Of a stretch of DNA of 64,000 nucleotides, positions 1,654 through 63,870 are shown one piece after another (positions within the stretch are counted from its first letter, which is position 1; the number at the start of each line of letters is the position of its first letter). The position numbers were made by a program, and so were the translations under genes. The stretch comes from Chaetoderma sp. LZ-2023a (lineage: Eukaryota; Mollusca; Caudofoveata; Chaetodermatida; Chaetodermatidae). The notes under the pieces are model-generated. The model saw only the letters and a program-made list of their open reading frames with translations. It had not been told where the DNA came from and did no database searches. Where the stretch lies: positions 72,787,040 through 72,851,039 of the forward strand of contig CM067366.1 in the NCBI GenBank assembly GCA_034401795.1. Reading direction: 5' to 3'.

Positions 1654-1847
1654 TTAACTGACTGCCCGTTGAATTTCTGCAGACACCATTTTCCATGGGG
1701 TCTGACTGGATATGCTGAATATTTAGAAAACTATTTGACTGAAAGTTGTTGGTGGCTAAGCCACCAACAACATTCAGTCAAATTATTTTCTAAATATTCA
1801 CAGGTCCAGAGTTATTGTCTATAGGCTTGCAGCAGTCAGACAGTCAA
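1654..1847. mobile_element. F2 foldback MITE
   Basis: Starts TTAACTGACTGCCCGTTG and ends near GCAGTCAGACAGTCAA, so the right TTAA has decayed to TCAA. The centre is the palindrome TTGGTGGCTAAGCCACCAA, flanked by arms reading GAATATTTAGAAA and TTTCTAAATATTC. The T-to-A change in 'TATTTTG' to 'TATTTAG' is present in both arms. Confidence 0.85.
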
Positions 1848-2118
1848 TGTCCTCATTAAATACCATCCAACGTTAACCTCATTAAAGATGGTCATTCATC
1901 CCTAAGACAACAGACGAATATAATTAAACATAGCACTAATTATCCTAATATGATTATGCACAACTCTGTAATCAACTTACTGCCTCATTACATCTTTCAG
2001 AACTCCGCTACCGTTTATCTAATGGCATCCATATGAACAACAACGATGCAATGATCAGTATAGAATTATGACTTGTATCTAAATTATTGCTGAGACAATA
2101 TATGTAAATGAGCTATCT

Positions 2119-2356
2119 TTAACCGCTTAACCCTCAAATTTATTCAAGAAAATTTCAATTTTCTCGTAGAAAATGTCCATTTGCCGACCAAGAAGACTAT
2201 TTTTGAAAACTTACCACTGGATTGACTGGCTCGGTTATCGAGCCACTGATTCTAGTGGGAAATCTTCAGAAATGGTCTTCTCTTGGTCTGCAAATGGGCA
2301 TTTCTCAAGACCAGTGCAGAAGCCACTTTAAGCTGATATGAGTGTTATAGGGTTAA
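2119..2356 (-). mobile_element. F1a foldback MITE, full length
   Basis: Type example of F1. It has a TTAA at each end, CCCTCAAATTTATTCAAG on the left, GCTGATATGAGTGTTATAGGGTTAA-type sequence on the right, and long arms that pair from GTCCATTTGC to GCAAATGGGC with the centre CTCGGTTATCGAG. The TTAA target and CCCTTT-like ends fit non-autonomous piggyBac-like elements; this is inferred from ends only, as no transposase is present. If transcribed, it would fold into a hairpin of about 100 bp. Confidence 0.88.
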
Positions 2357-2380
2357 AGAATGCTGTGTATGCAGGCTAAA

Positions 2381-3030
2381 TTGACAGTTGAATCACTCCT
2401 GAGTACAACAAATGAACTTTAACCTTTTAATGGCAGTTGAATCACTTCTGACAAATGAACTTTAACCTTTTAATGGCAGTTGAATCACTTCTGACAAATG
2501 AACTTTAACCTTTTAATGGCAGTTGAATCACTTCTGACAAATGAACTTTAACCTTTCAATGACAGTTGAATCACTTCTGAGTACAACAAATGAACTTTAA
2601 CCTTTTAATGGCAGTTGAATCACTTCTGACAAATGAACTTTAACCTTTCAATGACAGTTGAATCACTTCTGACAAATGAGCGTTAACCTTTCAATGACAG
2701 TTGAATCACTTCTGACAAATGAACGTTAACCTTTTAATGGCAGTTGAATCACTTCTGACAAATGAGCGTTAACCTTTTAATGGCAGTTGAATCACTTCTG
2801 ACAAATGAACGTTAACCTTTCAATGACAGTTGAATCACTTCTGACAAATGAACGTTAACCTTTTAATGGCAGTTGAATCACTTCTGACAAATGAACTTTA
2901 ACCTTTTAATGGCAGTTGAATCACTTCTGACAAATGAACGTTAACCTTTCAATGACAGTTGAATCACTTCTGACAAATGAACTTTAACCTTTCAATGACA
3001 GTTGAATCACTGACAAATGAACTTTAACGG
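2381..3030. repeat. Minisatellite array A, 43-bp unit, about 15 copies
   Basis: Unit contains GCAGTTGAATCACTTCTGAC and TTAACCTTTTAATGG. Two copies carry a few extra bases (GAGTACAAC); the last copy is shortened. Point variants (GGCAG/GACAG, AACTTT/AACGTT) are shuffled among copies. The array sits between two F1 copies, 25 bp from the left one and touching the right one. The TTAACCTTTTAATGG part resembles an F1b terminus. Confidence 0.95.
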
Positions 3031-3273
3031 TTTAATGGTAAAACCAGCCAAAAAAACGCTACTACAGGTGTGTTAAAATTCATACCAATTTAGAGAAGAC
3101 TATTTTTTAATATTTACTGCTAGAATGACTGACCTGATAATCAAGCCAGTCATTCCAGCAGGAAATCTTAAAAAATAGACAATTCTCTTGATCTTCAGAC
3201 AGCGTGGATATTTTCTGTCATTCTATGGCAAAATTGAAATGTTCGTGACCAAATTTGACAATGAATGGATTAA
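3024..3273 (+). mobile_element. F1b foldback MITE
   Basis: Begins TTAACGGTTTAATGGTAAAACC and ends GACAATGAATGGATTAA. Both arms carry CTGCT where the family has CCACT next to GGAATG, so a private change is mirrored across the palindrome. Its left end overlaps the last unit of array A. Confidence 0.8.
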
Positions 3274-4118
3274 TCAAGTCAGCGATACATAGTAATTTGG
3301 AAACGACTGTCATTTATTCGAATTCTGATCCTGAGAATTAGCAATAACTTGGTCTACATTGGTCTCAGCTTTGTAAATCAGATTTTATTGTCTAATAACT
3401 TCTGTACTTTTCCAAAGTCTTTCCAGCTAGAAATGTTTGAATCCACAGCCATCTCTCAAACCCATTTATCTGAAATATTCCCTCAAAGGGCAATCTTAGA
3501 ACTTAATTAAATCAGGGAATGACACTTATAGACCAGCTTTGAGCACAAGAACCAATAAATCACATCGTAATTGTTGTGCAATGTCTTCAGGAAACATTTC
3601 AGAAATACTTTATAGCCTATGTAACAGCTATACAAAGTTTTAATTAAATCAGGATGCCGGTTAGTGAGGTCATGAACTCAGGTACAAATTTCTCCTGTAC
3701 CCATTCCAAACTTAGCGCTCGTATGCGAATTAGAAATTATCCTTCTGAATCAATATGTCACCTGTTCCTCTCATTGCAGCCATTACTTGTCATGCTCTAT
3801 CTTGTCTCCGTGACGATGTAATCGCATTATGTATCATTCCTATGCATGTCAGGGTGCAACTCAGGGTGCAACTCACCGCTGCGGAATCAACACCATCATT
3901 TATTGATAAACAGAGAAATTTTGAGACGCTGGAGGGACAACATCGGTACTTCAGAAAATGCCAACACATCAGTTTGCAGAATCTGTAAATTATTCATAAT
4001 TTTAGCAAAGGGACTACATATTACAACTGAATGATACGCTATAAGAGATTTGAGACAACAGAATATCTTTAAATCATTTGTGAAAACATTCCAAAACATT
4101 TACTTTTAACTCAAGCTA
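3274..4118. other. Unique AT-rich stretch, nothing recognised
   Basis: No family copy, array or credible coding frame. A short direct duplication AGGGTGCAACTC occurs at about 3851-3873. Confidence 0.55.
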
Positions 4119-4232
4119 TTAACCCTTCCAGTGGTAAATTTTCAAAAATAGTCTTCTTTTGACATGTAAATGGATATTCCTCAAGACCCCTGCAGAGCCT
4201 GGTTTTGGCCAGCTTGACCATGAAAGGGTTAA
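4119..4232 (-). mobile_element. F1b half element
   Basis: Only the right arm remains, but a TTAA is present directly before CCCTTCCAGTGG and another after GACCATGAAAGGG. The left arm has been lost with its terminal TTAACCCTT kept. Confidence 0.75.
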
Positions 4233-5012: not shown

Positions 5013-5041
5013 ATAAACCTCTAGCCCAAAACAAACAAGTA

Positions 5042-6013: not shown

Positions 6014-6053
6014 CTTAACCCTTTAACACTCATATCAGCCCAAAAAATTTTTT
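6014..6053 (+). mobile_element. F1a left-end fragment
   Basis: TTAACCCTTTAACACTCATATCAGCC is followed by a T-run and then directly by F3 sequence. The rest of the F1 copy is missing. Confidence 0.7.
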
Positions 6054-6446: not shown

Positions 6447-6448
6447 AT

Positions 6449-6960
6449 AAGAATAGCCAATTCACCTTTCCAAAGTACCCACCCATCATATGACGTCACA
6501 ATGAACTGCGTGATGTGTACAATGACATCATAATGAATGATGTCATGAATGATGTCGATAAGTACATCACGAACGCATATTTGAAGATGGTCTATGCGTT
6601 GTTGCACAAATTGTTTGCTTTTACTATTTAATAAATATGCTGTTGAATATTTTGAAACTAATTTGACTGGGCGCAGTTGCTGCCATAGGCAGCAACAGCA
6701 CCCAGTCAAATTAGTTACAAAATATTCAACAACTTCCCTGTATAGTTTTCAGGAAATTGATAGCTAGGGCATTTGGAGATTGATCAATCCCAACACAGCG
6801 AGGTGTGGGTGGAGCTTAGCTAGTGATGGACGGGGTATAGTTAAAAATGGAAAGGTCCATTATAAGAGGTTTTAAAAACTGACGCCACTCAGTGATCTGA
6901 ATGTGGGGGATAATGCAAAGCCAGAGTTACCTCCCCTGGACAGAAATTGGCTATTCCAAT
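6449..6960 (+). mobile_element. F3 foldback element, longest copy
   Basis: Outer ends are GAATAGCCAATT and AATTGGCTATTC, a terminal inverted repeat. The core palindrome is GAATATTTTGAAACTAATTT..GCTGCCATAGGCAGC..AAATTAGTTACAAAATATTC at about 6643-6735. The left flank holds TGACGTCA (6491-6498) and several ATGATGTCAT-like motifs; the right flank holds GAGGTGTGGGTGGAGCTTAG. No TTAA is seen at the ends, so its transposase class is open. Confidence 0.75.
6491..6498. promoter_or_regulatory. Perfect CRE-like palindrome TGACGTCA inside F3
   Basis: Matches the full cAMP-response element bound by CREB/ATF bZIP factors. It lies in a cluster of TGATGTCA-type variants at 6525-6560, and related TGACGTAA motifs occur in the other F3 copies. 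Function is not shown. Confidence 0.35.
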
Positions 6961-7904: not shown

Positions 7905-8269
7905 TCTAACAATAGATCCTTCTAGATTTAGCTATGCCCCACCCTTCTCTAGCCACACCTCACTCGTGTCGGAATCGATCGATTTCTGAACTCCCTGACT
8001 ATCAACTTCCAGAAGACCGTACAGGTAAACTATTGAAAATTTTGGAACTAATTTGACTGGGCTGCTGTTGCTATGGCAGCAACAGCGTCCAGTCAAATTA
8101 GTTCCAAAATATTCAACAGCATGTTTATTAAATAGTAGACATACAATTCGTACATGTCGGACTATTAAGAGTTAGACAGGCCAAACAGAATCATTTTTGA
8201 TATAATGATTATGACGTAATCCTACACGCGGCTCAGCTGAGTCATAATCTGGAAAGGTGAATTGACACC
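7905..8269 (-). mobile_element. F3 foldback element, reverse orientation
   Basis: Left flank has GCTATGCCCCACCC and CTAGCCACACCTC (reverse of the F3 right flank). The core is TTTTGGAACTAATTTGACTGG..CTGTTGCTATGGCAGCAAC..CCAAAATATTC at about 8030-8118, and the element ends GGAAAGGTGAATTG. The change CAAAA to CCAAA is mirrored on both arms (TTTTGG and CCAAAA). Confidence 0.78.
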
Positions 8270-8275
8270 ATAGCT

Positions 8276-9244: not shown

Positions 9245-9247
9245 CTC

Positions 9248-11517: not shown

Positions 11518-11693
11518 TTAACCCTTTCACTGCGGAATTCCACATATTTCATCTTCAACGCTAACATACAGGAAAACTGTTGAATATTTTAAGATTAATT
11601 TGACTTTCAGTCAAATTAATTTCAAAATATTCAAACAGAGTAAGTTTTATATCGCAAAGAATTTTTTCAGGCAATTATCGACAAAAGGTTTAA
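11518..11693 (+). mobile_element. F4 foldback MITE
   Basis: Begins TTAACCCTTTCACTGCGG, ends TTATCGACAAAAGGTTTAA. The core arms GAATATTTTAAGATTAATTTGACT and AGTCAAATTAATTTCAAAATATTC meet with almost no loop, so the inner GCTGCC part is deleted. Confidence 0.8.
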
Positions 11694-16653: not shown

Positions 16654-16880
16654 TTAACTCTTTAAACCACAAATTTCTTAAATCTTCTCTAAGAAAATGT
16701 CCATTTGCAGATCAAAAGAAGCATATTTTTGAAAATTTACCACTGGAATGACTGGCTCGGTTATCGACTCAGTCATTCTTGTGGTAAATTTTCAAAAATA
16801 ATCTCTTAATCTGAAAATGGACATTTCTTAAGACAACTTGCAGAGGACGTTTTTGGCTGATATGTGTGTTAAAGTATTAA
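16654..16880 (-). mobile_element. F1a foldback MITE, first of three joined copies
   Basis: Begins TTAACTCTTTAAACCAC, ends GTGTGTTAAAGTATTAA. The final TTAA is also the first TTAA of the next copy. The left arm reads GACCAAAAGAAG..TATT-like and the right arm ATAATCTCTTAATC, so the arms are diverged. Confidence 0.85.
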
Positions 16881-17106
16881 ACACCACATTTGTTCTAGAA
16901 ATTTATATTTTCTCATAGAAAATGTCCGTCTGCAGACCAAGAGAAAACTATTTTTGAATATGTACCACTGGAATGACTGGCTCGGCTATGGACCCAGTCG
17001 TTCAAGTGATAAATTTTCAAAATAGCTCTCTTCTTGGCCTGCAAATGTACATTTTTCAAGACCCGCGCTGAAGCTATTTTGGTCGTCTTGAGTGTTAATG
17101 GGTTAA
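16877..17106 (-). mobile_element. F1a foldback MITE, second of three joined copies
   Basis: Begins at the shared TTAA with ACACCACATTTG; the expected CCCTTTAA is degraded. Ends GAGTGTTAATGGGTTAA, and that TTAA begins a third copy. Confidence 0.85.
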
Positions 17107-17638: not shown

Positions 17639-17849
17639 TTAACTGTCTCGCTCCTACAAGCCATAAAATATATTTTTCAATAAGTAAATACTCCTGACTT
17701 GTTGAATATTTTGAAAACAATTTCACTGAAAATTGTTGGTGGCTTAGCCACCAATAACTTTCAGTCAAATTATTTAAAAAATATTTAGCCGCTCCAGAGA
17801 TAACCTTTTGAACATGTTGTCTGCTAAAACTCAGCAGTCGGACGGTTAA
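17639..17849. mobile_element. F2 foldback MITE
   Basis: Begins TTAACTGTCTCGCTCC, ends CTCAGCAGTCGGACGGTTAA. The centre TTGGTGGCTTAGCCACCAA is intact. The inner arm reads TTTCACTG on the left and CAGTCAAA on the right. Confidence 0.85.
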
Positions 17850-23729: not shown

Positions 23730-23822
23730 GTGCAGAATATTTTGAAAATAGTTAGACTGAAAGTCCTTGCTGCCTAAGGCAGCAATGACTTTCAATGGAA
23801 TTGTTATCAATATTTAGCACAA
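23730..23822. mobile_element. F2/F4-type core hairpin
   Basis: GCAGAATATTTTGAAAATAG..TTGCTGCCTAAGGCAGCAATGAC..AATTGTTATCAATATT. The centre GCTGCCTAAGGCAGC is the F4/F3 kind, while the arm ACTGAAAGTCCTTG is the F2 kind. Confidence 0.65.
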
Positions 23823-26104: not shown

Positions 26105-26341
26105 CTTAAACCTTTAACACTCAGGTTGGTAAAAAAATGCTTCTGCAGTCGTGTTGGGAAATGTCCATTTGCAGACTAAGAGAATAGCATTTTTTACTTT
26201 ATCACTTGAATGACCGGCTCAATAACAGAGCCAGTCATTCCACTGATAAATTTTCAAAAATACTCTTCTTCCGGTCTGCAAATGGACATTTTCTGAAAGA
26301 AAGTTAAGTTTTCTTCAACAAATTTGAGGGTTAACAGGTAA
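26105..26341 (+). mobile_element. F1a foldback MITE
   Basis: Begins TTAAACCTTTAACACTCAGG; ends GAGGGTTAACAGGTAA. Both arms carry TTATCAC/GTGATAA-type changes (TATCACTTG and CACTGATAA). Its last bases (GTAA) also start the following F4-like copy. Confidence 0.85.
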
Positions 26342-26537
26342 CCCTTGGAATCCCACTTACTCAATTTCAAGACATTCATGAAAAATATTGAATACAAATT
26401 TGGAAATAAATTTGACTGGAAACTGGTGTTGCCCTAGGCAGCAAGCAACAGCTCCCAGTCAAATTGGTCTCAAAATATTAAACAGATTATTTCTTACATC
26501 CTAAATCATTTGTAATGTAGTGTGGAGGAAGGGGTTA
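26338..26537 (+). mobile_element. F4/F3 intermediate foldback element
   Basis: Starts GTAACCCTTGGAATCCCAC, ends GGAGGAAGGGGTTAA. Core: AATAAATTTGACTGGAAACTGG, GTTGCCCTAGGCAGC and CTCCCAGTCAAATTGGTCTC. It has F4-like ends with an F3-like centre. Confidence 0.7.
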
Positions 26538-28718: not shown

Positions 28719-28783
28719 ACATGTTGTGTATTTTGTAAGTCATTTGACTGCAGATTATTGTTCCATATCTACAACTATGACCT

Positions 28784-28992
28784 TTAACCCTTACCACTCT
28801 GATGTCAATATTCCATCTTTTATTGTGTCAATATCACAGAAACTGGTGTACATTGTTAAACAACTTTGCTGGAATATGTTGCTGTCTACGACATCACCAT
28901 CTCCTACCAAATTTGTTGAAAAATGAACACCAGTTCATCTTTTAATTTATTTTGAAAATTTAAAGTTTTGACACCAGAGTGGTAAAGGTTAA
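28784..28992. mobile_element. F5 TTAA element with 20-bp terminal inverted repeats
   Basis: Left end TTAACCCTTACCACTCTGAT, right end CCAGAGTGGTAAAGGTTAA. Inside, ACTGGTGTACATTGTT pairs with a later AAAATGAACACCAGT. Size 209 bp. Its ends are CCCTT-like as in F1 and F4, but the interior is unrelated. Only one copy in the window. Confidence 0.75.
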
Positions 28993-29296
28993 ACTTGATC
29001 CTTGGCATGGCTGCCACGCTCACACACACATGACAAGATCTTAACTCGCAGGTATCCAATGTTTCTCCTAGAATACATGTAGAACAATTCCTCGCTATGA
29101 ACAATACATAAGAACAAAGTGTGGTACACATGGCTCGGAAGAGCATATAGTCTATCCCAGAGATCAATAGTTGATTAGCGGTAATGGATGCACTCTCCAA
29201 TCAAAGCATCGCACAGAACTGCTTCCCACTAACAGCTTACAGGATAACTTAATAAGTGAACCGTAGAATGGAAGTACAGAAATATATGTAACTCAG
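28993..29296. other. Unique stretch, nothing recognised
   Basis: No repeat copy or gene recognised. Confidence 0.5.
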
Positions 29297-35705: not shown

Positions 35706-35879
35706 TTAACTCTTTCACTAATGAAGATATCTCATTTTCAAGGCAACCATACAAAAGACTTTTGAATATTTTGAAATTAATTTGCTGTTGCTTCCAGTCA
35801 AATTAATTTCAAAATATTCAACAGAATGACTTTTATATCATAAAGAATTGTTTTCAGGCTTTGACAGTGAAAGGGTTAG
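35706..35879 (+). mobile_element. F4 foldback MITE
   Basis: Begins TTAACTCTTTCACTAATGAAG, ends TTGACAGTGAAAGGGTTAG (TTAA to TTAG). Core arms GAATATTTTGAAATTAATTTG and AAATTAATTTCAAAATATTC meet around CTGTTGCTTCCAG. Confidence 0.88.
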
Positions 35880-41608: not shown

Positions 41609-41849
41609 TTAACTCCTTAACCCTAAAATTTGTTCAAGAGAATTTAAATTTTCTCACAGAAAATGTCCATTTCCAGACCAAGAGAAGACTATTCTTGAAA
41701 TTTTACCACTGGAATGACTGGCTCGGTTAACCGAGCCAGTCATTCAAGTGGTACAATTTCAAAACTAGTCTTCTCCTGGTCTGCAACTGGATATTTCTCA
41801 AGACGACTACAGAAGTCATCTTTGGTTGATATTAGGGTTAAAGGGTTAA
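41609..41849 (-). mobile_element. F1a foldback MITE, full length
   Basis: Begins TTAACTCCTTAACCCTAAAATT, ends TTAGGGTTAAAGGGTTAA. The tip CTCGGTTAACCGAG is a perfect palindrome. Carries the private right-arm variants also found at 39358. Confidence 0.9.
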
Positions 41850-42053
41850 TTAACTATTTAATGGTCAAGTCGGCCAAAACTGACCTCTGCAGCAGTCATG
41901 ATAAATGATCATTTGTGAGGCCAAAAGGAAACTTTGTTGGAGGATTTATCATTGGAATGATTGGTGTGGTAAATTTTCCAAAATAGTGTTGACCTGCAAA
42001 TGGACAGTAGAGATTTGGATTTTCTAGACCAATCTTGACATTTAAAGGGTTAA
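41850..42053 (+). mobile_element. F1b foldback MITE abutting the previous copy
   Basis: Begins TTAACTATTTAATGGTCAAG directly after the previous element's TTAA (TTAATTAA). Ends CTTGACATTTAAAGGGTTAA. The tip is reduced (ATGATTGGTGTGGTAAA). Confidence 0.85.
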
Positions 42054-45459: not shown

Positions 45460-46050
45460 GTATGAAAGTGGATGGAGCTTAGCTAGAAATGGGTGGAGCT
45501 TAGCTAGAAATGGGTGGAGCTTAGCTAGAAATGGGTGGAGCTTAGCTAGAAATGGGTGGGCCATAGTTAGAAATGGTGGGGCATAGTTACAAATGGTGGG
45601 CCATAGTTAGAAATGGTGGGGCAGTTAGAAATGGGTGGGGCATAGTTAGAAATGGGTGGGCATAGTTACACAAATGGGTGGGGTATAGTTAAAAATGGGT
45701 GGGCAGTTAGAAATGGGTGGGGCATAGTTAGAAATGGGCGGGGCAGTTAGAAATGGGTGAGGCATTGTTAGAAATGGGTGGGCATAGTTAGAAATGGGTG
45801 GGCATAGTTACAAATGGGTGGGGCACAGGTAGAAATGGGTGGGAATAGTTACAAATGGGTGGGGCTTAGCTAGAAATGGGTGGGGCTTAGCTAGAATTGG
45901 GTGTGGCATAGTTAGAAATGGGTTGGGGTTAGCTAACAATGGGTATAGAAATGGGTGGAACTTAGCTAGAAATGGGTGGAGCCTAGCCAGAGATCAGTGA
46001 AGCTGAGCTAGACATGGGCGGGGCTTAGCTAGAAATGGGCGGAGCATTGT
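45460..46050. repeat. Minisatellite array E, about 21-bp unit, about 27 copies
   Basis: Unit TAGAAATGGGTGGGGCATAGT with edge variants GGGTGGAGCTTAGCTAGAAA. The edge variants match the F3 flank GGGTGGAGCTTAGCTAG (6807). The sequence after the array, GTGGATCCTTGCACTC, matches the F3 copy at 48360-48380 in reverse. The array therefore appears to have grown inside an F3 copy. Confidence 0.92.
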
Positions 46051-47608: not shown

Positions 47609-47971
47609 TTAACCCTTTAATGACCAATGTTTATTTTGGTAAATAATTGGTTTGACTCTGCCCGGTTCAATAACCCTGAGCCAGTCATTCTCGTCATAAA
47701 TTTTGAGAAATAATCTTTTTGTGACATTAAAAAAAAAAACCCCACTTATTTTCTCGACCAATTTTGAAAATTGGCTGCCCATCTGCTGAATTTCCCTGCG
47801 GTGCAAAATAAATCTGGATATTTTGAAAACAATTTGACTGACAGTTGTTGGTGGCTAAGCCACCAACAACTTTCAGTAAAATTGTTTTCAAAATATTCAG
47901 CCTGTCCAGAGTTATTGTCAAATGAAATCATTGTCTGATGGCTTCCAGCAGACAGACAGTTAAAGGGTTTA
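47609..47971 (+). mobile_element. F1b copy carrying a nested F2 insertion
   Basis: Begins TTAACCCTTTAATGACCAATG. The arms are reduced, and the right part TTTTCTCGACCAATTTTGAAAA is interrupted at its internal TTAA site by an F2 element. After the F2 the F1 end resumes as TTAAAGGGTTTA. F2 is thus younger than this F1. Confidence 0.8.
47771..47963. mobile_element. F2 foldback MITE nested in F1
   Basis: Starts TTGGCTGCCCATCTGCTG (TTAA decayed to TTGG), ends CAGCAGACAGACAGTTAA. The centre TTGGTGGCTAAGCCACCAA is intact and the arms are near perfect, with only GACAG against CTTTC out of pair. Confidence 0.88.
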
Positions 47972-48299
47972 TTCAGTTTTAAGTGTGTGAAGATTATTCC
48001 TGGTCATGTGACAATCATTGACACTGTCACAGTGATACAGCCATAACTATTTAAATTGGACTTTAATTGACAGAATCATCTTTGTTCAATAATGTTAAAT
48101 TAATAATATCTGTGGGTGTCAGGTGATAAAATCACCATTAAAGCCACACCAGGAGACCCTTTGTGCTGATGACTTCCACACATGAGCAGGTGACGCTATT
48201 GTACACGCAGGACAAATAGAGGCAGAACAGTTGAATGAATTTGCGGAGAAATATGGATATGCAAAATTCACAGAGTAGAGGTGAAATGGAGAAATCAAG
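47972..48299. other. Unique stretch, nothing recognised
   Basis: No repeat copy or gene recognised. Confidence 0.5.
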
Positions 48300-48665
48300 T
48301 TTTAGTTATTCCCCGCCCATCTCTAGCTACGATCCACCCATGCTTTGCCCATTTCGGGATCAATTGATCCCTGCACTCTGAATCTCAATGTTCAGGAAAC
48401 TATACAGGTAAGCTGTTAAATATTTTGAAACTAATTTGACTATGAGCTGTTGCTGCAAAAGCGGCAGGTCAAATTAGTTTCAAAATATTCAACAGAATGT
48501 TTACTAAATAGCAGACATACAATTCATACAACTTGACAGACTATTGAGCATTTGTGACTGACTAAATCACTTCATTCATGACGTAACTGATTATGATGTC
48601 AGTCTACATGTGATGCAGTTCATTATGATGTCATGATTGATTGATGAACTGGATTCATCAGTGTC
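48300..48665 (-). mobile_element. F3 foldback element
   Basis: Left flank CCCGCCCATCTCTAGCTACG and GATCCCTGCACTC; core TATTTTGAAACTAATTTGAC..AAATTAGTTTCAAAATATTC at 48420-48495. The right flank has TGACGTAA and repeated ATGATGTCA. Outer ends are not clear. Confidence 0.75.
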
Positions 48666-49681: not shown

Positions 49682-49806
49682 TTAACCTGTTAACACTGAA
49701 ATGTCTTCAAGACAATTTCAATTTTCTCATAGAAAATGTCCATTAGCAGACCAAGAGAAGATTATTTCAAAAGTTTATCAATGGAATGCCTGGCTCATAA
49801 TCAACT
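49682..49806 (-). mobile_element. F1a left half
   Basis: TTAACCTGTTAACACTGAAATG through the left arm to GCCTGGCTCATAATC, where it stops. No right arm. Confidence 0.75.
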
Positions 49807-49875
49807 ATGTCACATGTAGGCTGATGTTATAATCAATTACGTCATAAATGACGCAATTTAGTGCGTCATTGATTC

Positions 49876-50113
49876 TTAACCCTTTAGCACTCATATCAGC
49901 CAAAAACGGCTTCTGCAGTGCTCTTAAGAAATATTCATTTGCAGACCAAGAAGTCTATTTTTTTTAATTTACCACTGGAATGACTGGCTCGATAACCGAG
50001 CCAGTCATTCCAGTGGTAAATTTTCAAAAACAGTCTTCTCTTGGTCTGCAAGTGGACATTTTTTATGCGGAAATTTAATTTTTCTCGGACAAATTCGAGA
50101 GTTAAAGGGTTAA
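49876..50113 (+). mobile_element. F1a foldback MITE, full length
   Basis: TTAACCCTTTAGCACTCATATC start, GAGAGTTAAAGGGTTAA end. The tip CTCGATAACCGAG is intact. Confidence 0.9.
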
Positions 50114-50116
50114 TAG

Positions 50117-50325
50117 TCAGACAAGTTGTATGAATTGTTATATGTCTTTACCATTTAATAAACATTATGTTGAATATTTTGAAACTTATTTGATTGGGCG
50201 CTGTTGTTGCCATAGGCAGAAACAGCACCCAGTCAAATTAGTTTCAAAATATTTAACAGCTTACCTGTATACTTTTCTGGAAATTGAGATAGGCAGGGCA
50301 TAGCTAATACTGGATTCCTCCATTG
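50117..50325 (+). mobile_element. F3 copy with short flanks
   Basis: Core GAATATTTTGAAACTTATTTG, GTTGTTGCCATAGGCAG and AAATTAGTTTCAAAATATTT. It directly follows F1 and has only one GCAGGGCATAGCTAA flank motif. Confidence 0.75.
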
Positions 50326-50404
50326 TATTGCATAGTATACAGTATGGCTCATAGATAAGGTAAAATGTTTCAACAGAAACATGTCAGTTAGTACAATTTT
50401 CAAC

Positions 50405-50600
50405 ACAATCCTAGAAATGTACTGTTGAATATTTTGAACATAATTGGATTGGTAGACCTTGCTTAAGTAGCACTGTCTTCCAATCCAAGTTAATGTTAAA
50501 AATATTCAACGGTACATTTTAATTTGTTTTGGAAACATGTAAAGTTATTTCTGAGCTGTACTGTATCTTGATCAGCCCACCAATTACTTCAGAGAACTAT
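50405..50600. mobile_element. F4-like copy, degenerate
   Basis: GTTGAATATTTTGAACATAATTGG and a returning TTAATGTTAAAAATATTCAAC around TGCTTAAGTAGCA. TATAGTGAAAGGAATG near 50598 may be the eroded right end. Confidence 0.55.
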
Positions 50601-52380: not shown

Positions 52381-52465
52381 CGTTATCATCTGCATATAAA
52401 TGTATGTACAGTCAAACTGATCTACAATATGTATAAAGCAAACTGATATAATGGTCACTTATAAT

Positions 52466-55022
52466 TATCTACTTACAACCCGAGTTACCTGTCAAACTTA
52501 TCTAACTACAGTCTGAGTTACCTGGCAAACTTATCTAACTACAGCCTGAGTTACCTGGCAAACTTATCTAACTACATCCTGAGTTACCTGGCAAACTTAT
52601 CTAACCACATCCTGAGTTACCAGGCAAACTTATCTAACTACAAACTGAGTTACCTGGCAAACTTATCTAACTACAGCCCGAGTTACCTGGCAAACTTATC
52701 TAACTACAGCCCGAGTTACCTGGCAAACTTATCTAACTACATCCTGAGTTACCTGGCAAACTTATGAAACACAGCCTGAGTTACCTGGCAAACTTATCTA
52801 ACTACATCCTGAGTTACCTGGCAAACTTATCTAACTACAAACTGAGTTACCTGGCAAACTTATCTAACTTCATCCTGAGTAACCTGCCAAACTTATCTAA
52901 CTACAGCCCGAGTTACCTGGCAAACTTATCTAACTACAGCCCGAGTTACCTGGCAAACTTATCTAACTACATCCTGCGTTACCTGGCAAACTTATCTAAC
53001 TACAAACTGAGTTACCTGGCAAACTTATCTAACTACAGCCTGAGTTACCTGGCAAACTTATCTATCTACATCCTGAGTTACCTGGCAAACCTATCTAACT
53101 ACAACCTGAGTTACCTGACATACTTATCAAACTACAACTTGAGATACCTCAGATACCTGGCAAACTTATCTAACTACAACCTGAGTTACCAGGCAAACCT
53201 ATCTAACTACATCCTGAGATACCTGGCAAACTTATCTAACTACAACTTCAGTTACCTATCAAAGTTATCTAAATACAACCTGAGTTACCTGGAAAACTTA
53301 TCTAACAACAACCTGAGTTACAGGGGCAAACTTATCTAACTACAACCTGAGTTACCTGGCAAACTTATCTAACTACAACCTGAGTTACGTGGAAAACTTA
53401 TCTAACAACAACCTGAGTTACAGGGGCAAACTTATCTAAATACAACCTGAGCTACCTGGCAAACTTATCTAACTACAACCTGAGTTACCTGGCAAACTTA
53501 TCTAACTACAAACTGAGTTACCTGGCAAACTTATCTAATGACAACCTGAGTTACCTGGCAAACTTATCTCGATTACAACCCGAGTTACCTGTCAAACTTA
53601 TCTAACCACAACCCGAGTTACCTGTTAAACTTATCTAATGACAACCTGAGTTACCTGTCAACCTTATCTAACGCCAACCTGAGTTACCTGGCAAACTTAT
53701 CTCAATTACAACATGAGTTACCTGTCAAACTTATCTCAATTACAACCCGAGTTACCTGGCAAACCTATCTAACTACAACCTGAGTTACCTGGCAAACGTA
53801 TCTAACTACAACCTGAGTTACCTGGCAAACTTATCTAACTACAAACTGAGTTACCTGGCAAACTGATCTAACTACAGCCTGAGTTACCTGGCAAACTTAT
53901 CTAACTACATCCTGAGTTACCTGGCAAACTTATCTAACTACAACCTGAGTTACCTGGCATACTTATCAAACTACATCCTGAGATACCTGGCAAACTTATC
54001 TAACTACAACCTGAGTTACCAGGCAAACTTATCTAACTACATCCTGAGATACCTGGCAAACTTATCTAACTACAACTTCAGTTACCTATCAAAGTTATCT
54101 AAATACAACCCGAGTTACCTGGCAAACTTATCTAACAACAACCTGAGTTACAGGGGCAAACTTATCTAACTACAACCTGAGTTACCTGGCAAACTTATCT
54201 AACTACAAACTGAGTTACCTGGCAAACTTATCTAATGACAACCTGAGTTACCTGGCAAACTTATCTCAATTACAACCCAAGTTACCTGTCAAACTTATCT
54301 AATAACAACCTGAGTTACCTGTCAAACTTATCTAATGACAACCCGAGTTACCTGGCAAACTTATCTAATGCCAACCTGAGTTACCTGGCAAACTTATCTC
54401 AATTACAACCTGAGTTACCTGTTAAACTTATCTCAATTAAAACCCGAGTTACCTGTCAAACTTATCTCAATTACAACCTGAGTTACCTGTCAAACTTATC
54501 TCAATTACAACCTGAGTTACCTGTCAAACTTATCTCAATTACAACCCGAGTTACCTGTCAAACTTATCTAACGACAACCTGAGTAACCTGACAAACTTAT
54601 CTCAATTACAACCCGAGTTACCTGTCAAACTTATCTCAATTACAACCTGAGTTACCTGTCAAACTTATCTCAATTACAACCTGAGTTACCTGTCAAACTT
54701 ATCTCAATTACAACCTGAGTTACCTGTCAAACTTATCTAACCACAACCTGAGTTACCTGGCAAACTTATCTCAATTATAACCTGAGTTACCTGTCAAACT
54801 TATCTAACCACAACCTGAGTTACCTGTCAAACTTATCTAATGACAACCTGAGTTACCTGTCAAACTTATCTAACAACAACCTGAGTTACCTGGCAAACTT
54901 ATCTCAATTACAACCTGAGTTACATGTCAAACTTATCTCAATTACAACCCGAGTTACCTGTCAAACTTATCTCAATTACAACCTGAGTTACCTGTCAAAC
55001 TTATCTCAACTGCAACCTGCGT
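52466..55022. repeat. Minisatellite array F, 33-bp unit, about 77 copies
   Basis: Unit: CTACAACCTGAGTTACCTGG then CAAACTTATCTAA. In the 3' half many units are 34 bp (TCTCAATTACAACC type) with CTGTCAAAC in place of CTGGCAAAC, so two subtypes sit in separate blocks. A variant unit ACTTCAGTTACCTATCAAAG recurs at 53245 and 54075, 830 bp apart, marking a higher-order duplication. The 33-bp phase leaves the + strand open over 52764-53339 as an 11-residue repeat (YNLSYLANLSN type), which I treat as an artefact. Confidence 0.98.
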
Positions 55023-55258
55023 TAGCGTGCCGAAAAATTATATGATTTATTAGAAACCAGAGCTAAACACCATACGCTTCACAGGTAAACATATTATGGC
55101 GCAGATAAAAATAGAGGAAAATTTAAACACTATGGAAAACAGAACATATTATTTATAGCGTCTAAGTGGACCAGAGAGAAAAAATAGAAGCCAAAATTTT
55201 TTCCAATTATATTAAAACATGTGTGTTGTTGAACACGATCTAAAACAGCTTTCCATGC

Positions 55259-55759: not shown

Positions 55760-56006
55760 ATCTACCCTTTTAATGGTCAAGTCGTGTAAAATGGCCTCTG
55801 CATTGCCGGACTCAATGAATGTACATTTGTGGGCCAAGCAGTGTATATTTTTGAAAATTTATAACTGTTATCCATTGCTCAATATCAGAACTAGTTATTC
55901 AAGTTATAAAGTATAAAAGATATTGTTCACTTGGCCTGAAAATGGACATCCACTCTAAGGCAAAAATGTAGACTTTCTGGACCAGTCCTGACCATTAAAG
56001 GATTGA
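55760..56006 (+). mobile_element. F1b foldback MITE, diverged
   Basis: TCTACCCTTTTAATGGTCAAG start and GACCATTAAAGGATTGA end. TTATAACTG and CAAGTTATAA share the change from TACCACTGG to TATAACT in both arms. The tip is degraded. Array G begins at its end. Confidence 0.75.
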
Positions 56007-58547
56007 TAAACAAAGCTTTTGCTTGGATCAAAAGAAACATGTATCAGATAAACAAAGCTTTTCATGCATCATAAGAAACACATATCAGATAAACAAAGCT
56101 TTTCTTGCATCATAAGAAACATGTATCAGATAAACAAAGCTTTTCTTGCATCATAAGAAACACATATCAGATAAACAGAGCTTTTCTTGCATCATAAGAA
56201 ACATGTATCAGATAAACAGAGCTTTTCTTGCATCATAAGAAATATGTATCAGACAAACAAAGCTTTTCTTGCATCATAAGAAACATGTATCAGATAAACA
56301 AAGCTTTTCTTGCATCATAAGAAACATGTATCAGATAAACAAAGCTTTTCTTGCATCATAAGAAACATGTATCAGATAAACAGAGCTTTTCTTGCATCAT
56401 AAGAAACATGTATCAGATAAACAAAGCTTTTCTTGCATCATAAGAAACATGTATCAGATAAACAAAGCTTTTCTTGCATCATAAGAAACACATATCAGAT
56501 AAACAGAGCTTTTCTTGCATCATAAGAAACATGTATCAGATAAACAGAGCTTTTCTTGCATCATAAGAAATATGTATCAGACAAACAAAGCTTTTCTTGC
56601 ATCATAAGAAACATGTATCAGATAAACAAAGCTTTTCTTGCATCATAAGAAACATGTATCAGATAAACAAAGCTTTTCTTGCATCATAAGAAACATGTAT
56701 CAGATAAACAGAGCTTTTCTTGCATCATAAGAAACATGTATCAGATAAACAAAGCTTTTCTTGCATCATAAGAAACATGTATCAGATAAACAGAGCTTTT
56801 CTTGCATCATAAGAAACATGCATCAGATAAACAAAGCTTTTCATGCATCATAAGAAACACATACCAGATAAACAAAGCTTTTCTTGCATCATAAGAAACA
56901 CATATCAGATAAACAAAGCTTTTCTTGCATCATAAGAAACATGCATCAGATAAACAAAGCTTTTCTTGCATCATAAGAAACATGTATCAGATAAACAGAG
57001 CTTTTCTTGCATCATAAGAAATATGTATCAGATAAACAAAGCTTTTCTTGCATCATAAGAAACACATATCAGATAAACAGAGCTTTTCTTGCATCATAAG
57101 AAACACATATCAGATAAACAAAGCTTTTCTTGCATCATAAGAAACACATATCAGATAAACAGAGCTTTTCTTGCATCATAAGAAACACATATCAGATAAA
57201 CAAAGCTTTTCTTGCATCATAAGAAACATGCATCAGATAAACAAAGCTTTTCTTGCATCATAAGAAACATGTATCAGATAAACAGAGCTTTTCTTGCATC
57301 ATAAGAAATATGTATCAGATAAACAAAGCTTTCCTTGCATCATAAGAAACACATATCAGATAAACAAAGCTTTTCTTGCATCATAAGAAACACATATCAG
57401 ATAAACAAAGCTTTTCTTGCATCATAAGAAACATGCATCAGATAAACAAAGCTTTTCTTGCATCATAAGAAATATGTATCAGATAAACAAAGCTTTTCTT
57501 GCATCATAAGAAACATGTATCAGATAAACAAAGCTTTTCTTGCATCATAAGAAACACATATCAGATAAACAAAGCTTTTCTTGCATCATAAGAAACACAT
57601 ATCAGATAAACAAAGCTTTTCTTGCATCATAAGAAATATGTATCAGATAAACAAAGCTTTTCTTGCATCATAAGAAATATGTATCCGATAAACAAAGCTT
57701 TTCTTGCATCATAAGAAACATGTATCAGATAAACAAAGCTTTTCTTGCATCATAAGAAACATGTATCAGATAAACAGAGCTTTTCTTGCATCATAAGAAA
57801 CATGTATCAGATAAACAGAGCTTTTCTTGCATCATAAGAAATATGTATCAGATAAACAAAGCTTTCCTTGCATCATAAGAAACACATATCAGATAAACAA
57901 AGCTTTTCTTGCATCATAAGAAACACATATCAGACAAACAAAGCTTTTCTTGCATCATAAGAAATATGTATCAGATAAACAAAGCTTTTCTTGCATCATA
58001 AGAAATATGTATCCGATAAACAAAGCTTTTCTTGCATCATAAGAAACATGTATCAGATAAACAAAGCTTTTCTTGCATCATAAGAAATATGTATCAGATA
58101 AACAAAGCTTTCCTTGCATCATAAGAAACACATATCAGATAAACATAGCTTTTCTTGCATCATAAGAAACATGTATCAGATAAACAAAGCTTTTCTTGCA
58201 TCATAAGAAACACATATCAGATAAACAAAGTTTTTCTTGCATCATAAGAAACACATATCAGATAAACAGAGCTTTTCTTGCATCATAAGAAATATGTATC
58301 AGATAAACAAAGCTTTTCTTGCATCATAAGAAATATGTATCAGATAAACAAAGCTTTTCTTGCATCATAAGAAACATGTATCAGATAAACAAAGCTTTTC
58401 TTGCATCATAAGAAACACATATCAGATAAACAGAGCTTTTCTTGCATCATAAGAAACATGTATCAGATAAACAAAGCTTTTCTTGCATCATAAGAAACAT
58501 GTATCAGATAAACAAAGCTTTTCTTGCATCATAAGAAACATGTATCA
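56005..58547. repeat. Minisatellite array G, 41-bp unit, about 62 copies
   Basis: Unit: AAACATGTATCAGATAAACA then AAGCTTTTCTTGCATCATAAG. All copies keep the 41-bp phase. Variants fall at few sites (ACATGTAT/ACACATAT/ATATGTAT; AAAGCTT/AGAGCTT). Rare variants recur at exact multiples: CAGACAAAC at 56250 and 56578 (328 bp = 8 units); GTATCCGATA at 57681 and 58009 (328 bp); TTTCCTTGC at 57330, 57863 and 58109 (13 and 6 units). This points to block-wise unequal exchange and recent growth. Confidence 0.98.
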
Positions 58548-59486: not shown

Positions 59487-59675
59487 GCCTGTCCCCTGTT
59501 TGTCACAGTTACCTTGACCTTTGACCTTCTGCCCTCAATGTTATCATGCTGCTTCCTAACATTATAGGTAACCAGGTTTCCAAGTTGTAATAACCTTAAC
59601 CAATGCTGATATATAAGCGGAAAAGTTTTGCTAAACTCGAAAACCTAATGTTGAAATAGCAGAGTTCTATATCAA

Positions 59676-59702
59676 GGTCAAAGTGACCTTGACCTTTGAC
59701 CT
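59676..59702. promoter_or_regulatory. Nuclear-receptor-like sites in array H (copy 2)
   Basis: AGGTCAAAGTGACCT is an inverted repeat of AGGTCA spaced by 3, the layout of an oestrogen response element. It is followed by TGACCTTTGACC, a direct repeat spaced by 1 (DR1), as bound by HNF4/RXR-type receptors. Sequence match only. Confidence 0.35.
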
Positions 59703-60215
59703 TGTGATCCCAACATCATCATGTTGCATCCTATCATTATAGGTAACCATGTATTCAAGTTTAGATGCAATAGGCGTAACCAATCCTGAAAGATAAGCCG
59801 AGACGTTTTGCTAAACGCAAAAACTTAATGTTGAAAAAGCAGAGTTCTGTATCAAAGTCACAGTGATATTGATCTTTGACCTTCTGACACCAACATCATC
59901 ATGCTGCTTCCTAACATTATAGGTAACCATGTATCCAAGTTTAGTTGCAATAGTCTTAACCAATCTGCAATATAAGCTGAAAAGCCTTGCTAAATGCAAA
60001 AACTTAATGTTGAAATAACAGAGTTCTGTATCAATGTCACATTGACCTTGACCTTTGACCTTGTGATGCCAACATCATCACACTGCTTCCAATCATTATA
60101 GGTAACCATGTATCCAAGTGTAGTTGCAATAGGCTTAACCAGTCCTGAAATATAAGCTGAGAAGTTTTTCTAAACGCAAAAACTTAATGTTGAAATAGCA
60201 CAGAGATATATATCA

Positions 60216-60240
60216 AGGTCACAGTGACCTTGACCTTTGA
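60216..60240. promoter_or_regulatory. Consensus ERE-type palindrome in array H (copy 5)
   Basis: AGGTCACAGTGACCT matches the vertebrate consensus oestrogen response element, including the CAG spacer of the classic vitellogenin site. An adjacent TGACCTTTGACT is a near DR1. Other DR1 matches (TGACCTTTGACC) lie at 59515, 60049, 60411 and 60565. Confidence 0.35.
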
Positions 60241-61577
60241 CTTTGTGATCCAAATATCTTCCTGCTGCATCCTATCATTATAGGTAACCATGTATCCAAG
60301 TTTACTTGCAATAGGCTTAACCAATCCTGAAATAAAAGCCGAGAGGGTTTGCTAAACGCAAAAACTTAATGTTGAAAAAGGAGAGTTCTGTATCAAGGTT
60401 ACAGTGATATTGACCTTTGACCTTCTGACCCCAACATCATCATGTTGCATCCTATCATTATAGGTAACCGTGTATCCAATTGGATCAGGCATTGCTGAGA
60501 TATAAGACAATAACTTTTATTTAGCGCAAAAACTTAACGTAAAATATTAACAAAGATTATACTGTGACCTTTGACCCCATAACCTTGACATCATGACCGC
60601 TTTATCAGTGGGCTGCTTCCTTTCGATGTATATCTCCATGTATCCAAGTTTGGTTCCCATTGAATTAGGCATTGCTGAGATATAAGACAATAACTTTTGT
60701 TTAACGCAAAAACTTAACGTAAAATATTAACAAAGATTATACTGTGACCTTTAACCCCATAACCTTGACCGCATGATGTCTGCATCAGCGTGCTGCTTCC
60801 TTTCGATGTATATCTCCATGTATCCAAGTTTGGTTCCCATTGAATTAGGCATTGCTGAGATATAAGACAATAACTTTTGTTTAACGCAAAAACTTAACGT
60901 AAAATATTAACAAAGATTATACCGTGACCTTTTACCCCATAACCTTGACCGCATGATGTCTGCATCAGCGTGCTGCTTCCTTTCGATGTATATCTCCATG
61001 TATCCAAGTTTGGTTCCCATTGAATTAGGCATTGCTGAGATATAAGACAATAACTTTTGTTTAACGCAAAAACTTAACGTAAAATATTAACAAAGATTAT
61101 ACTGTGACCTTTAACCCCATAACCTTGACGTCATGACTGCTTTATCGGTGGGCTGCTTCCATTCAATGTATATCATCATGAACCCAAGTTTGGTTCCAAT
61201 TGGATCAGGCATTGCTGAGATATAAGGAAATAACTTTTGTTTAACGCAAAAACTTAACGTAAAATATTAGCAAAGATTATACCGTGACCTTTGACCCACA
61301 CAACCTTGACCGCATGATGTCTGCATCAGTATGCTGCTTCCTTTTGATGTATATCACCATGTAACCAAGTTTGGTTCCAATTGGATCAGGCATTGCTGAG
61401 ATATAAGGCAATAACTTTTGTTTAACGTAAAATATTAACAAAGATTATGTAACCTTTGACCCCTGTAACCTTGACCTCATGGCCTTTTCATCAGCGGGCT
61501 GCTTCCTTTTGATGTATATTACCATGCACCCAAGTTTGGTTCCAATTGGATCAGGCATTGCTGAGATATAAACTTAA

Positions 61578-62055
61578 CTTAAAAGTTTACGCCGCCGCCG
61601 GAAAAGTGATACCTATGTCTCGATCCTGCTTCCATCATCACTTCAGCAGACAGACATTTAAAAATTGCAACAGCTTCCAAGCAAATACATTGTAAGATGT
61701 TTACAAAAGGATTACATGATAAACAACATAACTCATATATAGCATCGTGTCTGTGAGGCTAAAAGGTGTATATAGACTTGAATGACTGGATCTACCGGCA
61801 CTCAATATTATAAGCATCTTGGTAACAGTTGAAGAGCATTCTGTCTCACTCAGCACAACATGTTTGGGTTAGACACTTACTGGCTTTCCTTTAAAGAAAT
61901 GATTGATTACATAACAGGCTAAAGGCTCGTGCTTCTGTCTTACCCTGTCTGCAGAACAAAGCCTAACTTCTCTGACACAGTTTCAGTTCTGACCCGTTTT
62001 CAGGAATATTAGCAAATGGGTAATTAAAACGGCTACCCTATTTTGCAAGACACAG
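61578..62055. repeat. Array H tail and segment S copy 2, first part
   Basis: GCCGCCGCCGGAAAAGTGAT closes array H at about 61590-61609. From 61765, sequence matching 58561-58765 and 63185-63313 begins (AAAGAAATGATTGATTA, TTCTGACCCNTTTTCA.GAATATT). No gene seen. Confidence 0.6.
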
Positions 62056-62157
62056 TTAACACTTTCATGGGCCTACATATTCTCTTGGCCTGTAACTGGA
62101 CATTCAATAAGAAAATAATTAAATTTTCTTGAACAAATTTGACCAGTAAAGGGTTAA
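62056..62157 (+). mobile_element. F1b copy with the whole hairpin core deleted
   Basis: TTAACACTTTCATGGGCC, then ATTCTCTTGGCCTGTAACTGG and TTTGACCAGTAAAGGGTTAA. The left arm and tip are missing. It is absent from the paralogous segment near 63313. Confidence 0.8.
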
Positions 62158-62531
62158 TGAGTCAGTTGATAAGGGAAATTGGTGTCCACGTTTAAGTTGC
62201 TTTGTGGAACTTGTTCAAAGTGACCAATGTTATACATATTGACAATTTTATTTGTAAGCAATGATTCAATACACCTAACGTTCTAAAGGTTGTAGGATTC
62301 TGAGAAGGAGTGTTTACCGCCAGGTCAATGCCAGGTTACTTACTGACTAGAGTTGCGCATAATGAGATCATTACTTCTTCAAAGATGTGTTAATTACAGG
62401 TAAATATAACGTCATCAGGTAACTTATTGACGTGTGTTGCTGGAACATGGATAAACAACATTGATGCCAACATTAAGATGACTTATGCCAACTACATCAC
62501 TGATCAGCATCCAGTATGTGTAGATGGGTTA
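62158..62531. repeat. Segment S copy 2, second part
   Basis: TTCAAAGATGTGTTA, CAGGTAA and ATAAACAACATTGATGCCAA match 63552-63665 (CTTCAAAGATGTGTTA, ATAAACAATATTCATGCCAA). Diverged old duplication; origin unknown. Confidence 0.6.
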
Positions 62532-62766
62532 TTAACTCTTAACCCTTCAAATTTATGAAAATTTCAATTTTTTTCATGGAAAATGTTGATTTGCAAAGCA
62601 AGGAGAATATTTTTGAAGATTTACCACTGGAATGACTGGCTCAGTTATCGAGCCAGTCATTCCAATCGTAAATTTTCAAAAATAGTCTTCTCTTGGTCTT
62701 CAAATGGACATTTCTCAAGGTCACTGCAGAAGAATTTTTGGCTCATATGAGTGTTAAGAGGCTTAA
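62532..62766 (-). mobile_element. F1a foldback MITE, first of three chained elements
   Basis: TTAACTCTTAACCCTTCAAATTT start, GAGTGTTAAGAGGCTTAA end. The tip CTCAGTTATCGAG is intact. The final TTAA opens the next copy. Confidence 0.87.
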
Positions 62767-62960
62767 CCATTTAAAAGGCACAGGCCAAAATTCATTCTGC
62801 AGTCGCCTTGGGTCCATTTGCAGACCAAGAGAATATTTTTGAAAATTTACTGATGAAATGACTCGAGCCAGTCATTCTCCTCAGTAAGTTCACTTAATCT
62901 GCAAATGGACATTTTCTTTGAGAAAATTGAAATTTTCTTGAAGAAATTGAAAGGTTTTAA
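62763..62960 (+). mobile_element. F1a foldback MITE, second of three chained elements
   Basis: TTAACCATTTAAAAGGCACAGG start. TTTACTGATGAAATGAC pairs with GTCATTCTCCTCAGTAAG; the tip is shortened to CTCGAGCCA. Right end TTGAAAGGTTTTAA. Confidence 0.8.
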
Positions 62961-62966
62961 ATGTCT

Positions 62967-63181
62967 TTAAAACGCTTTCACCGACAAATCCCTGAAGTTT
63001 ATTTTTTACTTTAAAAAACTTATTTTGTTGACAATTTTGAAATTAAGTAAAGTTGACTGGAAGACAATGCTACCTAAGGCAGCAATGGCTTCCAGTCCAA
63101 TTAATTTCAAAATATTTAAACGTTTTTCTGTATGGTTGCATTGAAAATGAGATATAAGGAATTCGTCGGTGAAAAGGTTAA
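62967..63181 (-). mobile_element. F4 foldback MITE, third of three chained elements
   Basis: Begins TTAAAACGCTTTCACCGAC, ends TTCGTCGGTGAAAAGGTTAA. The termini GCTTTCACCGACAAATCC and GGAATTCGTCGGTGAAAAG form the best F4 inverted repeat here. Centre ACCTAAGGCAGCAATGGC. Confidence 0.88.
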
Positions 63182-63692
63182 TGTACAATTGTTTTTCTTT
63201 AAAGAAATGATTGATTATATAAGAGGGTAAGGGCATGCTTCAGTCAGACAGAATAACACGTAACTTAAATTCTGACCCCATTTCATGAATATTGGCAAAT
63301 ACAAACCGCTATCACAGATGGTAAAAACATTCTTAGTTTACGTTAGAAATTGAAAAAAGAGAAAATCACGCATACCTGTCTTAAAGATTATCGTCTCAAA
63401 TTACCATTTTGCCATTTGTTCATAAATATTTCTAAGTTCCAAACACTCATTCACTTCATACAGGCATGAGAGAACCTTTTGCCCTCATTTTTTTTGTGAC
63501 CCAATACCAGGTTCTCACCTATTATCGTCATCTAGATAATGAGGTAATCAATGCTTCAAAGATGTGTTACTTAGCCTACTGGTAATTGTTGTGTCACCCT
63601 GTAAGTAACCTTTCAGAGCTTGTTTAGACTGGAACCTGCATAAACAATATTCATGCCAATATCATCAGACTTATGCTAATAGATTAGAAACT
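63182..63692. repeat. Segment S copy 3
   Basis: TTCTTTAAAGAAATGATTGATTA (63194-63216), AATTCTGACCCCATTTCATG and ATAAACAATATTCATGCCAA parallel 61890-62480. It lacks the F1 copy present in copy 2. No coding frame. Confidence 0.6.
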
Positions 63693-63870
63693 TTCAACCA
63701 TTTCACTGATAATGTCAATCTCAGGGCAAACACACATGAAAGCTTTTGAATATTTGAAATTAAGAAGGCAGCAATGTTTTCCAGTCATATTAATTTGAAA
63801 ATATTTAACAGAATATGATATAAATCATAAAGAATTTACTTTTTCAGGGATTTATCGGTGAAAGGATTAT
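63693..63870 (+). mobile_element. F4 foldback MITE
   Basis: TTCAACCATTTCACTGATAATG start, GGGATTTATCGGTGAAAGGATTAT end. The left arm is reduced (TTGAATATTTGAAATTAAG), the right arm is CAGTCATATTAATTTG. Confidence 0.82.

Follow-up and report, generated by a model that had tools for sequence, protein, structure and literature searches.

Architecture of the shared core and its element families

The window analyzed herein, a stretch of 64,000 nucleotides of the Chaetoderma sp. LZ-2023a genome (C8:72787040-72851039; genome of 2.44 Gb in 2,753 contigs), contains families of short palindromic elements, termed F1 to F5. In line with a mollusc origin, the haemocyanin beta-sandwich family PF14830, which is typical of molluscs, has 44 matches in this genome and 0 in the control genomes. 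Three of them, F2, F3, and F4, have a palindromic core of ~90 bp in common but differ in their ends, as seen in their consensus sequences and in pattern searches of the window and the genome. The common inner arm, the related centre, and the different ends had been proposed in a preliminary description of this DNA and are confirmed. The arm GAATATTTTGAAA matches 33 times in the window at ≤1 mismatch, compared with a mean of 0.48 and a maximum of 3 in shuffled sequence. Genome-wide, the arm pattern GAATATTTTGAAAN{1,12}AATTTGACTG gives 63,984 forward and 64,590 reverse exact matches, together 128,574, wherein one palindromic element can score on both strands; the reversed control gives 0. The centre patterns TTTGACTGN{4,10}GTTGGTGGCTAAGCCACC and TTTGACTGN{2,12}GCTGCCNTAGGCAGC match the genome 3,440 and 21,378 times, respectively.

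The full-length consensus of F2 (TTAACTGTCTG..CAGACAGTTAA) measures 213 bp and derives from 35 copies, that of F3 (CAATGGACCTTTCCAGTTT..AAACTGGAAAGGTCCATTG) 396 bp from 34 copies, and that of F4 (TTAACCCTTTCAC..GTGAAAGGGTTAA) 211 bp from 15 copies. The longest reading frames of the F2 and F4 consensus comprise 57 and 18 amino acids; hence, no transposase is encoded. F5 is a diverged relative of the shared core, and F1 is a palindromic TTAA element with a core of its own; both are palindromic along much of their length. Kinship of the F1 core with that of F2–F4 was considered and is not established (23–68 of 1000 shuffles in comparisons with F2, F3, F4, and F11), and comparison with the two F5 halves gives 10 and 230 of 1000 shuffles. 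F1–F5 together account for 25.8% of the window. In a 200-kb sample drawn from 20 fixed positions, their share is 13.5%, so that they make up a large part of this genome. No window match was obtained in Rfam at gathering scores.

Core copies were collected from the window, 20 unselected 10-kb stretches, five 3-kb loci, and 60 pieces chosen from pattern hits. L-numbers (e.g., L010:4877) denote sampled genome pieces with the position inside the piece. All 130 copies kept contain at least 75% of the core. Since many of them had been selected by core letters, a second search starting from the sequences flanking the core (wings) was carried out in 264 kb of unselected sequence. The copies within the window are as follows.

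1654..1847, plus strand: F2 copy with TTAACTG left end; core at 1717-1799
17639..17849, minus strand: F2 copy, both ends TTAA
27450..27654, minus strand: F2 copy, both ends TTAA
46824..47036, plus strand: F2 copy, both ends TTAA, centre GGTGGCTAAGCCACC
47774..47963, plus strand: F2 copy; its core (47814-47900) folds into a single hairpin
6459..6861, plus strand: F3 copy, full length
7911..8261, minus strand: F3 copy
48286..48654, minus strand: F3 copy
49773..50299, plus strand: F3 copy interrupted at its TTAA by an F1 element; matched parts 49773-49883 and 50105-50299
49877..50104, minus strand: F1 element nested in this F3 copy, flanked by TTAA on each side
62971..63180, plus strand: F4 copy, full length
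35707..35878, minus strand: F4 copy with shortened core
11519..11691, minus strand: F4 copy
63696..63868, minus strand: F4 copy
26338..26537, minus strand: member of subfamily F8 (TTAACCCTYGGAATCC end), aligned with L014:9773
23730..23822, plus strand: old core copy with centre GTC..TTGCTGCC and unassigned wings
28783..28993, minus strand: F5 element with a diverged relative of the core; its TTAACCCTTA end agrees with that of a resident piggyBac transposon
50396..50516, minus strand: core copy of wing class F9
2128..2355, plus strand: example of F1, with TTAACCCT ends and its own palindromic core

Clustering of the core copies by their wings yields the large classes F2, F3, and F4 and the smaller classes F5 and F7–F12, to which single copies add F13–F15. 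Each of the classes F7–F15 is represented by one to three copies, and the core that these minor classes bear is the same or a diverged one. In two F10 copies (L018:8330-8422 and L065:182-253), the similarity extends well past the presumed ends, so that both may sit within a larger repeat.

F1 is found at 55 places in the window and occupies 16.3% of it, compared with 5.5% of the 20 sampled loci. Close pairs of F1 elements, with few bases between them, lie at 41618-42039, 62543-62955, and 16671-17105 and are oppositely oriented in two of the three cases. They are perhaps self-insertions, or arrays like those described for the coral CMITEs.

Co-inheritance of core and ends

In the sampled copies, core and ends are inherited together. 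Both wings are present in 92 copies; here, F3 wings enclose an F3 core 34 times, F2 wings an F2 core 34 times, and F4 wings an F4 core 13 times, meaning that 81 of 81 typed copies are on class when the cores are typed against three references only and F6 cores are counted with the nearest type. One F4-wing and two F5-wing cores are untypable, and F4-like cores occur under F7, F9, and F10 wings three, three, and two times. For the core tree, 94 of the 130 cores were used, omitting 36 that have no assigned wing class or belong to F8, F11, or F12; two further copies were omitted from the wing tree and the cross table for insufficient wing length. The seven wing labels require six changes on the core tree, which is the minimum (shuffled mean 46.7), and the core types require three changes on the wing tree compared with a minimum of two. 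Both trees have few columns and mostly open forks, F4 alone not being one clade on the core tree, and, hence, inform on grouping and not on order. The wing-started search gives the same picture: 42 of 42 typed copies are on class, 16 more of the 58 being too weak.

According to the preliminary description, the core may move between elements by recombination or be conserved for its fold, and agreeing core and end trees were named as the outcome speaking against the former. Such agreement is what was obtained, and free exchange of the core among elements is not supported. That recombination or gene conversion passes the hairpin as a module from one element to another is quite improbable, given that off-class pairs number 0 of 81 typed F2/F3/F4 copies and 0 of 42 wing-found ones and that the label changes on the core tree are at their minimum. 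Exchange would, on the other side, account for the presence of the core or its diverged form with ten wing types. It would also fit L010:4877, which combines an F3 left wing with an F8-like right inner wing (counted with F3), the F4-winged L062 and L084, for whose cores the F6 query with its F2-like arms is the best match, and the nine of 103 callable cores with halves of different best type (seven F3/F4, two F2/F4).

Mixed combinations are seen genome-wide as well. An F2-type arm base is joined to a GCTGCC centre in 614 cases, compared with 21,378 centres of this kind; for an F3/F4-type arm base joined to a GGTGGC centre, the count is 219, compared with 3,440. Among the matches listed, the first stem letters of the other family are also present in 9 of 100 of the former set, these F2-like letters with the other centre being a further point for exchange, and in 0 of 100 of the latter. 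Variants in length only, with a gap of 4–8 where 9 is usual, give counts of 64, 3, 0, and 267, in the same direction as the main counts.

Two window copies had been regarded as intermediates. The one at 26338-26537, taken for a combination of F4 and F3, can be aligned to L014:9773 starting at its TAACCC end and belongs to the separate subfamily F8. The one at 23730-23822, taken for a combination of F2 and F4, has its best relatives (~82%) in cores whose wings belong to F2 (L036), to F4 (L084), or to no assigned class (W 27321), and its 22 best matches listed at E ≤ 1e-3 span the core and extend no more than about ten bases past it. It is an old, ambiguous copy and no demonstrated hybrid.

Pairing of the core

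Maintenance of the core as a pairing structure is supported, as the preliminary description had considered. When each class is represented by one copy (14 copies in all), 23 pairs are changed on both sides compared with 10.6 in shuffled sets (0 of 500), the F2–F4 rows having been picked for their intactness, a choice that raises the paired fraction. The covariation score of these copies is 0.207 compared with 0.106 shuffled (0 of 500), and it falls to 0.033–0.067 when the partner is slid. A set of 20 copies gives the same two-sided, pair-keeping result. The comparison of consensus sequences is independent of the picking; herein, two-sided paired changes relate to other changed pairs as 8:1 for F2/F3, 8:1 for F2/F4, and 3:2 for F3/F4. 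Moreover, three single copies fold into one hairpin with z values of −13.2 to −19.5 relative to shuffles.

No excess of double changes is seen inside single families (10, 13, and 9 compared with 8.9, 12.8, and 6.4 expected). Those that occur are complementary in nine of 10 cases for F2 compared with 4.9 shuffled (46 of 1000), in seven for F3 compared with 5.6 (310 of 1000), and in five for F4 compared with 3.1 (157 of 1000). Since change is two-sided between families and without such an excess within them, the palindrome appears to be important in amplifying lineages and little so in dead copies. Correction of one arm by the other after insertion was also considered; the number of double changes does not support it, although the F2 changes are largely complementary. 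The lower divergence of the core compared with the wings is in part an effect of ascertainment, the difference being gone in wing-found F4 copies (0.128 in wings, 0.132 in the core).

The core could also be neutral baggage of one old family, whose ends have diverged by drift and whose palindrome persists only through the youth of its copies. The agreement of the core tree with the wing tree and the lack of a within-family excess would both be expected from this. We consider it unlikely, because two arms drifting independently would not give rise to the two-sided, pair-keeping changes between families, and because the ends, which are needed for transposition, should then be the conserved part.

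Alternatively, template switching or inverted duplication may have rebuilt the palindrome each time a subfamily was founded, the two-sided change being mechanical and unselected. The wings of F2 are inverted copies of one another (score 42, 0 of 1000 shuffles), F1 and F5 are palindromic over much of their length, and nine of 10 F2 double changes are complementary, all of which fits such rebuilding. The right inner wings of F3 and F4, in contrast, are homologous across families and dissimilar to the left wings; hence, the palindromes of these two families were not rebuilt from one half and its flank. Such rebuilding is, overall, rather unlikely.

TTAA ends and piggyBac transposases

F2 and F4 start and stop at TTAA, where the similarity of the flanks ends. 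End counts were made with TTAA excluded from the query and double hits removed (background 0.0078). TTAA is exact at 33 of 64 F2 ends, with one mismatch at 20 more, at 28 of 45 F4 ends (nine more), and at 76 of 135 F1 ends (37 more), compared with only two of 66 F3 ends (four more). In unselected sequence only, the exact counts are 14/22 for F2, 7/20 for F4, 66/117 for F1, and 1/39 for F3. F5 is flanked by TTAA at both ends in its two copies. In the window, F1 has inserted into the TTAA of F3, with F3 sequence on either side, and in L045, F4 adjoins the same TTAA of another F3, of which one side is seen.

The terminal motif CC[C/T]T (TTAACCCT) is present in F1, F4, and F5. The ends of F4 had been described as resembling those of F1; this likeness comes down to TTAA and the six bases TTAACCCTTT, which form a terminal motif of piggyBac type, and no module is shared. 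The piggyBac transposase family PF13843 has 119 matches in the genome. An autonomous piggyBac of 3.4 kb with a 611-codon frame (C16:105042005-105045416; L094 and L108) carries TTAACCCTTAGCACTC at each end, and the F5 copies agree with these ends at 22 of 24 and at 21 of 22 bp. Because of this match, F5 is tied to a transposase lineage; F1, F2, and F4 are tied by their target only, with the CCCT end in addition for F1 and F4. F1, F2, F4, and F5 look like TTAA-ending miniature inverted-repeat transposable elements (MITEs) of piggyBac type, and for F1, F2, and F4 the use of such transposases is what we infer.

An autonomous piggyBac carrying the shared core itself was sought and not found in the loci read; some bear unrelated palindromes instead. 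A resident family (L089–L092) with TTAACACGTTGACTGCCA-like ends contains an internal palindrome of ~144 bp on CTACGAGTTAACTCGTAG near one end. Similar ends occur in L097, L098, and L100–L102, and the inner motif occurs in L105. At L093:2674-2820, an unrelated 147-bp palindrome, 83% self-complementary, follows a piggyBac-like gene (662-codon frame).

Probable composite structure of F3

F3 has CAATGGACC ends. Besides the palindrome, it shares with F4 an asymmetric inner wing of ~40–50 bp, which is supported on the right side (0 of 1000 shuffles) and not clear on the left side alone (149 of 1000). By the same shuffle test, F3, F4, F8, and F12 have homologous inner wings on the right side, and those of F7 and F10 are homologous to some of them. 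Judged from this homology, F3 holds an F4/F8-like interior inside a different outer sequence. In the F3-like copy L010:4877, an F8-like half (aligned without a significance test) reaches a degraded TTA-ACC end. F3 is, hence, probably a composite, i.e., a TTAA-type element that became embedded in other mobile DNA and was then multiplied along with it.

No target duplication is present in the 11 F3 copies having both ends, and no empty site for the 62 full-length F2, F3, and F4 copies occurs in the sampled sequence. L009:4961-5230, a candidate for an empty F3, was rejected and is read as an internal deletion. A pattern for coreless F3 has 0 hits genome-wide, its right half itself having 0 exact matches in the sampled sequence, so that this count carries no information.

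The window also contains a 21-bp tandem array (GAAATGGGTGGGGCATAGTTA, 45464-46045) that resembles two such units in the right wing of F3 (38 bp aligned) and may have grown out of an F3 copy. Further long tandem arrays lie at 42692-44693 (unit of 57 bp), 52465-55024 (33 bp), 56005-58547 (41 bp), and 59502-61571 (180 bp).

Proposed history of the elements

F2–F4 and the minor classes are best explained as non-autonomous DNA transposons of the MITE type that descended from one palindromic ancestor. F1, F2, F4, and F5 would insert at TTAA, most likely driven by resident piggyBac transposases. A new subfamily would arise when a copy acquires new outer sequence, each probably suited to another transposase, and from then on core and ends would be passed on together. 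Since the palindrome would be kept pairable in amplifying lineages, both arms would change together. The likely reason for its conservation is a role in transposition, for example as a palindromic protein-binding site or as an extruded hairpin. F3, without TTAA and with different ends, would probably be a TTAA-type element carried and multiplied inside other mobile DNA.

We regard this explanation as a whole, namely mollusc MITEs of one palindromic ancestor with co-inherited core and ends and a core kept pairable, as probable. The anatomy, the TTAA ends, the agreement of core and wings in the sample, the two-sided changes, and the match of F5 to an autonomous piggyBac are demonstrated. Several results weigh against it. 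Besides the copies of mixed character, the picking of intact copies, the small size of classes F7–F15, the partly complementary double changes within families, and the ascertainment of core divergence, all given above, the CC[C/T]T end is missing from F2 (TTAACTGTCTG), whose wings show no significant likeness to other classes in the shuffle test. An autonomous partner for the ends of F1, F2, or F4 was not found in the 19 of 119 transposase loci read. The shared core is absent inside the piggyBac elements read, the core matches of L090 and L091 falling outside the element. Controls of the shuffle test comparing left with right wings fall below 2% in two of 16 cases (1 and 17 of 1000), F2's own aside. 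Finally, an empty site of F3 was not found, the sole coreless copy being the internal deletion.

A further-reaching view is doubtful: the palindromic core, and not the ends, could be the lasting unit of selection. It would act in cis, as a hairpin or a palindromic binding site required for amplification, and would be kept by pair-keeping change as the elements bearing it exchanged the ends specific to a transposase and, in F3, even the specificity for the target. If true, a transposon lineage could switch the enzyme that moves it while retaining an enzyme-independent amplification module.

Comparison with known systems

The preliminary description knew of no set arranged in this way, which is wrong, since different ends with a conserved interior have already been described in the coral CMITEs (PMC2872659). 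In the passages of that study describing them, CMITE families have different terminal inverted repeats (TIRs) and an interior that is better conserved across families than the TIRs; the type of interior correlates with the TIR family, with one exception. They are ~100 bp long with a 75-base interior, are estimated at ~1,600 copies, and show TTAA duplications, a link to a piggyBac-like transposon, and tandem arrays. CMITE-IN is a composite derivative wherein a TTAA-type MITE lies inside a larger mobile unit with TTAA at its ends (PMC2872659). The interiors of different MITE families are typically far more dissimilar, according to the same passages and the examples given in part of PMC3212995.

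The F2–F4 set resembles the CMITEs in its different TIRs with a conserved interior, in the correlation of interior type with end type, and in the TTAA sites and piggyBac link of the mollusc set (PMC2872659). It differs in length (211–396 bp compared with ~100 bp), in copy number (tens of thousands compared with ~1,600 estimated), in the lack of TTAA in F3, and in its interior, a ~90-bp palindrome with pair-keeping change; the likeness drawn between the two sets is one of arrangement. With piggyBac/TTAA MITEs in general, the mollusc elements share the short length, high copy number, and TTAA flanks, the CCC-type ends in F1, F4, and F5, and an autonomous partner for F5, whereas here the interior is the part shared across families (PMC2872659; PMC3212995). 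F3 resembles CMITE-IN in being proposed as a TTAA-type MITE within a larger mobile unit and, unlike it, has CAATGGACC ends and no clear duplication (PMC2872659).

Among the literature matches listed, none describes this element set in molluscs. New herein are the palindromic core, the scale, and the derivative with altered ends and target. The coral CMITEs left unanswered why the interior of a MITE outlasts its ends. With copies in the tens of thousands, numerous subfamilies, and changes that preserve pairing, the mollusc elements make this question approachable, namely whether the palindrome raises transposition and whether several transposases accept it.

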